A DNA stretch of 64,000 nucleotides from Turicibacter sanguinis (lineage in GTDB: Bacteria; Bacillota_I; Bacilli_A; MOL361; Turicibacteraceae), in assembly GCF_013046825.1 (NCBI RefSeq), contig NZ_CP053187.1, positions 1 to 64,000 of the forward strand, written 5' to 3'. The stretch's first letter is position 1. Every line of letters begins with the position of its first letter. This document shows, piece after piece, positions 10,400 to 56,139 of the stretch. The notes beneath the pieces were generated by a model, which worked only from the letters and a program-made list of their open reading frames with translations, was not told the DNA's origin and ran no database searches. The translations under genes and the position numbers were made by a program.

Positions 10400-10562
10400 A
10401 ATTTTTCACTCCAAAGTTTTAAAATTGTGCGCACTAATTTAATATACGATGACTTTTCTTCTTTTCCTTTTTTTATTTTTTTTAATTTTTAAAAATCAGA
10501 AAACGTATTCACCTTTTTTTAGACATAAGAACACAAAATGAACACAAAATTTTGTCGAATTT

Positions 10563-10571
10563 TGATATAAT
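10563..10571 (+). promoter_or_regulatory. Extended -10 promoter for the candidate sRNA
   Basis: TGATATAAT is a perfect extended -10 element on the plus strand; no good -35 is seen. Predicted start is about 10578, just before the first stem-loop. Confidence 0.55.
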
Positions 10572-10577
10572 TTTTTT

Positions 10578-10785
10578 TGTATTCATGAACATCCCCCCCC
10601 GTTCATGTAATACATTCCTTTCATTATTGTTTTTCATTCCATTTTTAATTTTTTACATCCCCTCATCAAACAAACGTATTGGGTTTTTGACTTAGCTAAC
10701 TTTTTTATGCTAAGTACCAATGCAACCTTATACTATTCCCCTCTCAAGGAGAACTGGTGCCCCCCACCAGTTCTCCTTTTTTTAT
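10578..10785 (+). ncRNA. Candidate trans-acting sRNA with C-rich loops
   Basis: This gene-free plus-strand stretch has a promoter, three stem-loops and a terminator. Stem-loop 1 (10584-10590 with 10601-10607) presents a loop ending in eight C. Stem-loop 2 stacks two helices, 10676-10682 with 10717-10723 and 10690-10696 with 10709-10715. Stem-loop 3 is a perfect 14-bp terminator stem with a CCCCC loop and U-tract. Two more TCCCC motifs lie in unpaired linkers near 10658 and 10737. C-rich loops that bind Shine-Dalgarno sequences are known from Gram-positive sRNAs such as the staphylococcal Rsa RNAs. Function here is inference. No ORF with a ribosome binding site is evident. This fills most of the 430-bp gap between ssb and ymfH. 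Confidence 0.6.
10746..10785 (+). terminator. Plus-strand terminator of the candidate sRNA
   Basis: Perfect 14-bp stem (10746-10759 with 10765-10778), loop of five C, then seven T interrupted only after 10783. The T-tract exists only on the plus strand, although no plus-strand protein gene lies upstream. Confidence 0.85.
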
Positions 10786-10795
10786 CTTATAAAAT

Positions 10796-10829
10796 AAAAA
10801 GAAACAGGAATTTCATCCTGTTTCTTTTT
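10796..10829 (-). terminator. Terminator after ymfH
   Basis: Perfect 14-bp inverted repeat (10796-10809 with 10816-10829), T-rich on the minus strand after the stem. Confidence 0.85.
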
Positions 10830-10832
10830 ATT

Positions 10833-12119
10833 TTATTTTTTAGGAAGTAACTTAAACGTACTAAAACGATCGGCTACAAAATAATCTTTTGCTACCTGTT
10901 GTAAATCCTCAATCGTTAATTTTTCTAAAATATCTAGAATCGTAAATAAATGAACACCATTAAAAGCATATTGTGTGAATTGGTTCGCAATAAATTCCAC
11001 AGAATTTAAAGCGCTTAAAAAGCGGCCTACTTTTTTATTTTTGATCCGATTAAATTCATCTTCATTAAATGCCATGGTTGAAATACTCTCTAATTTTTCT
11101 CTTAAACTCGATGCTAATTCATCGGGATATCGAGTGTCTCCTCCAACAATAGAAAAACCAAAGGCCGATTCAAAGTTTGTTTCATAAGAGAATGTATCAT
11201 TAATATAACCCTTGTCTAACATTTCTTCATAATAAGCAGAACTACTACCAAATATCAAATCAAAAATAATATCAACAGCTATTTCATTCTTTAATAAAAC
11301 TTCACCTTGACGATCTTTTGTCACATCTTTAATTCCTAAAAAGACTTTTGGAGTCGTGACTTCCATTTCTAGGACACTTTCTTTTGTCACAGCATAATCA
11401 GGCTCTTCTGGATATTGGCGTGGAATCTCATCTGCTTTCACATATTCTTTAGCAGCTTGATTTTGACGCACTAACGTCATGATTTCTTCTGGATTAAAAT
11501 CACCAATAACAAAGAGTAACATGTTCGAAGGATGATAAAAGGTATGATAACATTCATATAATAAATCCGCTGTAATCGGTTGGATAGAATCAACGGTTCC
11601 GGCGATATCAATCTTTACTGGGTGATCTTTGAATAGATTATTAATGATTCCATAATAAGCTCTAAAATCAGGGTTATCGTCATACATTTTTATTTCTTGT
11701 GCAATAATGCCTTTTTCTTTTTCAACCGTTTCTTCTGTAAAATAAGGAGTTTGAACAAAGTCAATTAATGTCGTTAAATTCTCTGATAATTCACTTGTAC
11801 AAGAAAATAAATAACACGTTCTCGTAAATGAAGTAAAAGCATTTGACGAGGCACTATGTGCAGAGAATTTTTAAAAAACATCATAGTCTTGTTTTTCAAA
11901 TAATTTATGTTCGAGGAAATGAGCAATTCCATCTGGAACACGTTTCATTTCTGATTGCCCAATCGGAACAAACTCATTATCAATTGAACCATATTTCGTA
12001 GTAAAGGTTGCAAAAGATTTATTAAAGCCTGGTTTGGGTAATAAATAAACTTTTAACCCATTTTCTAATTCTTCAAAATATAACTTTTCTTGTAATTGAG
12101 GGAACTCTTTAAATTCCAT
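10833..12119 (-). pseudogene. ymfH: M16 peptidase YmfH homolog with one in-frame nonsense codon
   Basis: Read straight through, this is one 428-codon frame, the normal length of the YmfH/insulinase-like family. Codon 83 is TAA (11871-11873), where the context DVF-stop-KFSAHSASSNAF aligns with family members having Gln or similar. A single C-to-T change from CAA would explain it. Everything after the stop stays in frame and looks intact, including the EKEKGIIAQEI metal-ligand region. The catalytic HFLEH motif is His67-Glu70-His71, before the stop. The start ATG overlaps the ymfF stop (TAATG). In Bacillus the ymfF/ymfH pair has been linked to EF-P modification. It may be a recent pseudogene, a strain mutation or a sequencing error. 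Confidence 0.85.
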
Positions 12120-15792: not shown

Positions 15793-16032
15793 TGAAATCC
15801 TCCTCGAGACAGATTAAATCCTAATGATTTATTTGCCTTTATTAGTATATCTGAAGTTATGAATGTTATATCAGTAATTCATTAGGAACATTCTAAAAAA
15901 TCAGAATTTAAGTGTTTTCAGTGAAGAAATTATCCAGATTCTTCAACTAACTCACCCTCAATTCTACCAAAAAATGACCACTTTTAAAATCTTTTTATTA
16001 GTATTTTGTCGAATTAAGCAGACTTTTTTATC

Positions 16033-20082: not shown

Positions 20083-20305
20083 AAATCCCCTGAATTGTGC
20101 GTATGGTGATTAGTTGTGAAATCCGAACATTTCTGATAAGGGAATCCGGAGTTCTGATATTGTGTTGAATGCCTAACCATTTTGTTAGGAATCCTAATAT
20201 ATCAGACAGGATACCCACCTGCTCTCGAGCGGGTTTATTATCCTAACACTTACGGCAATTTGGGTTATTTAAGATGACACGGATAGCAATATCCGTGTTT
20301 TTTTA
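20083..20305 (+). ncRNA. ssrS: 6S RNA, copy A
   Basis: An approximately 200-nt plus-strand RNA. 5' and 3' parts pair (GCGTATGGTGATTAG with CTAACACTTACGGC), an apical stem forms (20153-20160 with 20199-20206), and the middle is a large bubble with CCGAAC at 20123-20128 and ACCCACCTGC...GCGGGT opposite. CCGAAC matches the pRNA-template element I recall for Bacillus 6S-1. It ends in a 9-bp terminator stem (20277-20285 with 20290-20298) plus T-run. Copy B, 275 nt downstream, shows compensatory changes in these stems. 6S RNA binds the housekeeping RNA polymerase. Position beside tcdA fits Bacillus. Confidence 0.78.
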
Positions 20306-20573: not shown

Positions 20574-20579
20574 TTACTC

Positions 20580-20796
20580 ATCTTCTGAGATATGCGTAAG
20601 GTGATTAGTTCTTTAAATCCGAACATTTCTGATTAGGGAATCCGATTCGCTAGTGTGGTGTTGAATGCCTAGCTTTTATCACCTAGGACTCCTAAAACAC
20701 TAGATACGATGCCCACCTGCTATTTTAGCGGGTTTATATCCTAACACCTACGGTATTTTGGATAAACACGAATCAATATGATTCGTGTTTTTTTTA
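20580..20796 (+). ncRNA. ssrS: 6S RNA, copy B
   Basis: Paralog of copy A with the same order of elements. GCGTAAGGTGATTAG pairs with CTAACACCTACGG. CCGAAC is at 20619-20624, the apical stem is 20650-20656 with 20697-20703, the inner hairpin is CCTAG/CTAGG, and CCCACCTGC...GCGGGT lies on the 3' side. The apical helix and the terminator helix (20765-20775 with 20779-20789) differ from copy A at both partners, which supports real RNA structure. The RNA ends in eight T. The IS30 element begins two to three nt after this T-run. Confidence 0.78.
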
Positions 20797-55889: not shown

Positions 55890-56139
55890 AAAAAAAGTCC
55901 TTAGATTTAATCTAAGGACGTTATATACGCGGTACCACCTTAATTGTAGTTATCAAATAACTACCACTTGAAACGTTAACGCCGTCTACGGATATCCCTA
56001 CTTAAAGTTCAGGACATCTTCTCACAAGTGTCTTTCCTTAACTTACCCGTCGGAGCTTCCAGCCGTGACTCCGTTCTCTAGTTCGTTATCGATTAAGGCT
56101 CTTTCTTGATCATCGAATTTATTTTTATTATTGACTATT
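55890..56139 (-). promoter_or_regulatory. T-box leader of hisS-aspS
   Basis: On the minus strand the leader holds the T-box sequence GGTGGTACCGCG (55939-55928), a Stem I whose helices CAAG/CUUG and CCUUAA/UUAAGG frame a specifier loop, and a terminator stem (55897-55905 with 55911-55919) followed by six T. The specifier strand reads AAAGACA (56035-56029); GAC (Asp) is followed by a purine as usual, and CAC (His) overlaps it (GACAC at 56032-56028). Uncharged tRNA would promote antitermination. Confidence 0.9.

Follow-up and report, generated by a model that had tools for sequence, protein, structure and literature searches.

A conserved C-rich small RNA gene of Turicibacter with a predicted Shine-Dalgarno-masking role and a possible Spo0A input

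The sRNA-A locus and its predicted transcript

Turicibacter is an abundant gut genus and a major gut commensal, and an open-access literature search found no sRNA studies of it. The T. sanguinis genome (G000) is a single contig of 2,999,687 bases, and its first 64 kb (henceforth the window) carry an RNA gene, sRNA-A, at positions 10578-10785 of the plus strand. The gene order is ssb (minus strand), sRNA-A (plus strand) and yfmH (minus strand), and sRNA-A sits between ssb and yfmH in all Turicibacter loci examined. In the yfmH gene (10833-12119, minus strand), codon 83 of 429 is an in-frame stop, and a relative's copy is uninterrupted. In G006, the Turicibacteraceae genome outside Turicibacter that carries sRNA-A, the order is yfmH (plus), ssb (minus), sRNA (plus) and a methyltransferase gene (plus), with genes named by their likeness to those of the window; the divergent ssb/sRNA pair is retained there and the other neighbour has changed.

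The start of the transcript was placed from the position of the -10 element and the point where divergence falls, and its end from the terminator, giving a predicted length of ~208 nt where a preliminary description of this DNA had expected ~205 nt. At the 5' end lies hairpin 1 (10578-10614), with 13 pairs, one bulge and a loop of eight C (AUCCCCCCCC, 10591-10600). It is followed by unpaired block 1 (10615-10646, beginning UUCCUUUCAUUAUUGUUUUUCAUUCC), in which UCCUUUC is identical to part of the 16S 3' tail, and by unpaired block 2 (10647-10667, ending UUUUUUACAUCCCCUCAUC), whose UACAUCCCCUCAU motif has a mean unpaired probability of 0.83-0.97 in the six sequences available. Hairpin 2 (10676-10726) leads into unpaired block 3 (10727-10744, CUUAUACUAUUCCCCUCU), and the transcript ends in an intrinsic terminator (10746-10785) made up of a hairpin of 14 perfect pairs with a CCCCC loop (10746-10778) and a U-tract that follows it on the plus strand only. 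The two unpaired UCCCC sites have their C4 runs at 10659-10662 and 10738-10741. The eight-C stem-loop, the second stem-loop, both TCCCC sites and the perfect 14-bp terminator with its one-stranded T-tract had all been named in the preliminary description, and each was recovered here. The whole RNA folds with a minimum free energy of -51.3 kcal/mol, compared with a shuffle mean of -21.4 (z = -9.4; 0/200 shuffles as low).

Conservation of stems and of unpaired segments

The gene is single copy and is present in 5/5 Turicibacter species searched and in 1/3 genomes of other Turicibacteraceae genera. When a covariance model built from these six sequences was run against 395 genomes of the class, the six source genomes matched and 389 were without the element. 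A phylum-wide draw added two weak matches of 27.2 and 23.7 bits in small-genome Bacilli, which we treated as chance, and a hairpin pattern scan of genome contigs returned mostly unrelated Pseudomonas matches and one from Turicibacter.

We aligned the six sequences (five Turicibacter species and G006) without reference to structure, so that, with six rows only, the covariation numbers that follow are indicative, though their direction is clear. Under the structure named from the folds, 88.7% of cells pair, and for 13/39 pairs at least one sequence carries a change in both partners, a count reached by 0/500 shuffles; when the partners were slid by 1-3 columns, 0-3 double-change pairs were left. 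Hairpin 1 (100% of cells paired, three double-change pairs), the inner stem of hairpin 2 (100% paired, four) and the terminator (five) are supported by covariation in this alignment, which confirms in relatives, by compensatory change, the stems that had first been seen in a single genome. The outer stem of hairpin 2 is paired in 49% of cells and was not resolved by the alignment. At two pair positions some species use G-U, pairs that would turn into mismatches on the opposite strand; we take the plus strand to be the functional one for this reason.

Divergence, computed in blocks within Turicibacter, falls from 55% in the six bases between the -10 element and the start to 0-10% at the predicted start itself, is low through the transcript except for 19-23% (compensated) in hairpin 2 and the terminator stem, and rises to 65% immediately past the terminator. 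Since these borders are sharp, the conservation outlines a transcript with exact ends. The unpaired blocks are nearly constant when invariant columns are counted across genera in all six genomes: 27/32 in block 1 (0% divergence within the genus), 17/21 in block 2 (6%) and 17/18 in block 3 (0%). The flanks of the C-rich motifs match the C runs in conservation, and the motifs differ from one another. The unpaired CU-rich segments are near-invariant even in another genus and the stems vary by compensation, and this joint constraint on sequence and on structure is the signature that would be expected of a base-pairing sRNA. We conclude from sequence-level evidence, which covers the gene and its strand, the two ends of the RNA, its structure, the conserved motifs and the boxes of the promoter, that sRNA-A is a real, conserved and autonomous sRNA gene outside every Rfam family.

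Readings in which the region is not a separate RNA gene were weighed against this conclusion. It could encode a small peptide, for example from a hydrophobic frame starting at an ATG inside hairpin 1, and one 36-codon open frame with a hydrophobic stretch does exist in the window; this frame, however, lacks a Shine-Dalgarno (SD) site, would start 7 nt from the 5' end of the RNA, and does not survive the changes in C-run length seen in G001, G004 and G006, where it is interrupted or another frame takes its place. Among the six sequences no ORF is conserved in frame on either strand, the frame shifting with C-run length, so that the conserved ORF named in the preliminary description as the finding that would speak against an sRNA did not appear. 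We rejected the peptide reading because the frame is not conserved; already contradicted, it keeps next to no probability. Hardly more credible is the idea that the region is an untranslated part of, or antisense to, ssb or yfmH: the constant location between these two genes in Turicibacter is what recommends it, but sRNA-A has a promoter and a terminator of its own, both neighbours are on the other strand, and yfmH no longer adjoins sRNA-A in G006. An RNA from the minus strand was ruled out, as that strand has no U-tract and the G-U pairs fit the plus strand.

Promoter elements and a second C-rich sRNA family

Three conserved promoter footprints stand amid spacers that diverge by 44-65% within Turicibacter. 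Furthest upstream is GAAAACGTATTCA (10499-10511), a cre-like half-palindrome with 9% divergence between adjoining spacers of 61-65%. It is followed by the direct repeat GAACAC-N5-GAACAC (10529-10546, 11-bp step, 12/18 columns invariant in the six genomes), a candidate activator box, and by a perfect Spo0A box TTGTCGAA (10552-10559), which contains the core TGTCGAA (PMC3485338) and is identical in the five Turicibacter species and reversed in G006. The extended -10 element TGATATAAT (10563-10571), already pointed out in the preliminary description, is invariant in all six homologs. No -35 element is recognisable in this promoter, the direct repeat occupying its place, which is why a standard -35/-10 scan misses it.

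The Spo0A box was followed through the 2.864 of 3.0 Mb covered by our promoter and target scans, for which genes came from a home-made gene call. There, TTGTCGAA is intergenic in 64 of 119 occurrences, compared with 19% for permuted 8-mers, and it precedes spo0A, which the T. sanguinis genome encodes, as well as genes read from sequence as spoIIAA and spore-protein genes. Further perfect intergenic boxes lie in the window at 1697, before a spoIIAA-like gene, and at 16006. Eight intergenic boxes, that of sRNA-A included, are followed at 5-7 nt by a -10-like hexamer, against an expectation of ~2, the 5-7 nt range having been chosen after the sRNA-A promoter had been seen. A conserved Spo0A box in the promoter is, at the level of sequence, what a member of the Spo0A regulon would carry. 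Its position in the promoter spacer suggests repression, but the sign of control is a guess.

The strict form of the repeat, GRACAC-N5-GRACAY, occurs three times in 2.864 Mb, always in intergenic DNA: before sRNA-A, before spoVG (Pfam SpoVG) and at one further site without a clear -10. In the spoVG promoter (~884873-884923, minus strand) the direct repeat is 27 nt from an extended -10, and in that of sRNA-A 26 nt. With up to two mismatches allowed, the spacing from repeat to -10 recurs three times in one intergenic region (2383141, 2383460 and 2383883), each time preceding a near-identical unit of ~140 nt. These three tandem copies (G000, 2383141-2384069) make up a second C-rich family with the direct-repeat promoter, henceforth sRNA-B, whose unit holds a hairpin, a CCCCC-loop hairpin, unpaired UCCC and AUCCCC motifs and a terminator, folds with z = -6.2 and has no match in Rfam. 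There are three copies in G001, three in G004, seven in G003 and one in G006, with partial matches in G002 and none in G005 and G007, and the phylogenetic range is the same as that of sRNA-A. A matrix scan for the repeat promoter was trained on these same sites and is therefore not independent evidence; the pattern counts stand as such. The two families align no better than shuffled sequences, and the look-alike CAUCCCCU/UUUUCAUYCCA is not significant (663/2000 shuffles as good), so common descent is not claimed, and the likeness is one of architecture and promoter only.

In streptococci, the CiaR-dependent csRNAs form a group of sRNAs under one response regulator, with a direct repeat near the -35 position and pyrimidine-rich segments that bind SD sequences. 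The Turicibacter arrangement is alike in that several sRNAs have one promoter direct repeat, but the repeat is GRACAY-N5-GRACAY and not of the TTTAAG type (sRNA-A has GAACAC-N5-GAACAC in place of the CiaR repeat TTTAAG-N5-TTTAAG), and no sequence relation was found. The preliminary description mentions neither the Spo0A box, nor the direct repeat in the -35 position, nor the second sRNA family. For Turicibacter this makes two sRNA families, both well conserved, that share a promoter code open to testing; being without an Rfam counterpart, both would be new families.

Predicted mode of action and related sRNAs

UCCC motifs of Firmicute sRNAs bind SD sequences, and in LhrC, RsaE, RNAIII, SprD and FsrA they take part in the binding of mRNA targets (PMC4132741). 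In sequence, sRNA-A is an autonomous, structured RNA whose pyrimidine-rich seeds are conserved and unpaired; its probable effect is to silence other genes, whose mRNAs it would cover at the ribosome-binding site. We propose that the C-rich loop and the unpaired UCCUUUC and UCCCC blocks, possibly together with the terminator loop, would seed pairing with target SD sequences and so block translation. This pairing is proposed to proceed without Hfq, since no Hfq was detected. Upstream of this step, and with less certainty, transcription may need an activator, perhaps a response regulator of the OmpR type, that binds GAACAC-N5-GAACAC in place of a -35 element, and the same activator may be common to sRNA-A, the sRNA-B family and spoVG. 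Again less certainly, expression might be tied to entry into stationary phase or sporulation by Spo0A, which would occupy TTGTCGAA in the spacer and would more likely repress than activate. Transcription of sRNA-A, SD pairing, the type of activator and control by Spo0A are all inferred.

Complementarity searches gave no targets. Over the 2.864 Mb scanned, complementarity of sRNA-A to start regions was no better than that of flank-shuffled controls. The preliminary description had put forward an SD-masking sRNA gene equipped with a promoter and a terminator; the gene is upheld by stems, strand and the missing ORF, and the masking of targets is a prediction. The best duplexes often involve genes of transport and sugar metabolism (opp permease and ATPase, a sugar ABC permease, a GH1 glycosidase, a glucokinase-like ROK kinase, a sucrose-type PTS and a glycerol dehydrogenase); given the equal duplex frequency with flank-shuffled RNAs, we regard this list as leads and claim no target. 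Foremost among the candidates are opp operon genes, the sugar ABC permease and GH1 gene at 517-525 kb, gldA, spoVS and the sucrose-type PTS. In searches for extended complements across the order, counts for block 3 matched the reversed-pattern control, and those for block 2 showed a slight excess that includes the sRNA's own antisense. A 15-base start site, GGGGGACTAGTATGG, of a gene read as spoVS is identical in three species, an identity that general gene conservation alone may explain.

A different function would also fit this null result. If sRNA-A were a real sRNA acting mainly as a sponge or decoy, with CU-rich motifs that sequester an RNA-binding protein or a G-rich RNA rather than mask SD sequences, several redundant, near-identical motifs in one RNA and mRNA complementarity without excess over controls would both follow, and Firmicutes are known to have RNA sponges, one case being that of RoxS (PMC8216469). 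The sRNA-A motifs, however, differ from one another, and flanks conserved like the C runs are better suited to specific partners than a bare repeat would be, and we consider this function unlikely. Somewhat less likely still is a different main control, in which CcpA would act through the cre-like site, sRNA-A would tune secondary sugar use like RsaI, and the Spo0A box and the repeat would be minor. RsaI is repressed by CcpA (PMC9266662), the AACG-NN-TTC core of the site is conserved, intergenic DNA is ~3-fold enriched for cre-like sites that have one mismatch or none, a close relative of CcpA is encoded that scores 318 bits where the curated cut-off is 442, and among the start regions with the best scores are several of genes for the uptake of sugars or peptides. 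Against this, GAAAACGTATTCA is not convincingly cre-like: it departs from the cre consensus at two positions, is weakest in G006, and is not ranked by a cre matrix trained on the genome, a matrix that drifted to another motif and for which two test strings were too short for fair scoring. Control by CcpA is, moreover, compatible with the other inputs and does not exclude them.

We favour, as fairly probable, the reading of sRNA-A as a stand-alone, trans-acting, Hfq-independent SD-masking sRNA of Turicibacteraceae, with, less certainly, activation through the repeat and a link to Spo0A; points against it are the predicted pairing with start regions, no stronger than that of flank-shuffled RNAs, and the Spo0A box in the spacer, from where activation would be unusual. 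The design is most likely LhrC-like, and the sRNA regulon to which it would belong is most likely under a regulator and connected with sporulation or stationary phase. A wider and more doubtful proposal is that the single-copy RNA and the tandem family of 1-7 copies belong to one Turicibacteraceae regulon of C-rich sRNAs, under a repeat-binding regulator that also serves spoVG and with Spo0A as a gate, which would add a translational layer to the decision between growth and sporulation in a commensal apparently without Hfq. It is this possible shared regulon with Spo0A input that could be new. Were the Spo0A link true, SD-masking sRNAs would stand directly under the sporulation master regulator, an arrangement of which literature searches gave no example.

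The comparison with known systems is closest for LhrC1-5 of Listeria monocytogenes, which are controlled by LisRK. Like sRNA-A, they carry CU-rich motifs redundantly, in the loop of a hairpin, in single-stranded RNA and in the loop of the terminator (the C runs of sRNA-A lie at 10593, 10659, 10738 and 10760), and they make use of UCCC; two-component control and Hfq independence are properties of LhrC that are proposed for sRNA-A (PMC4132741). The multi-copy sRNA-B adds to the resemblance. By contrast, sRNA-A is longer, has longer unpaired blocks, is single copy and lacks the U of an LhrC-type UCCC in its terminator loop, and the Rfam models gave no covariance or sequence match to LhrC in the region at E up to 10. 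RsaE/RoxS (RF01820) of S. aureus and B. subtilis pairs several C-rich regions with G-rich SD sequences of metabolic targets (PMC5419742); its model scores 32.9 bits against a gathering threshold of 79, over 10749-10829 only, a match to the terminator and the next hairpin. By covariance score, sRNA-A falls outside both the LhrC and the RsaE/RoxS family, and no Rfam model exceeded its threshold there. RsaI of S. aureus (PMC9266662) is alike in SD pairing and in a possible catabolite-control input, and differs in that sRNA-A has no Rfam match and its cre site is weak. Elsewhere in the window, Rfam models identified two tandem 6S RNA genes on the plus strand (20084-20270 and 20579-20768; 92.5 and 90.4 bits) and a T-box leader (RF00230) on the minus strand (55911-56122; 123.5 bits).
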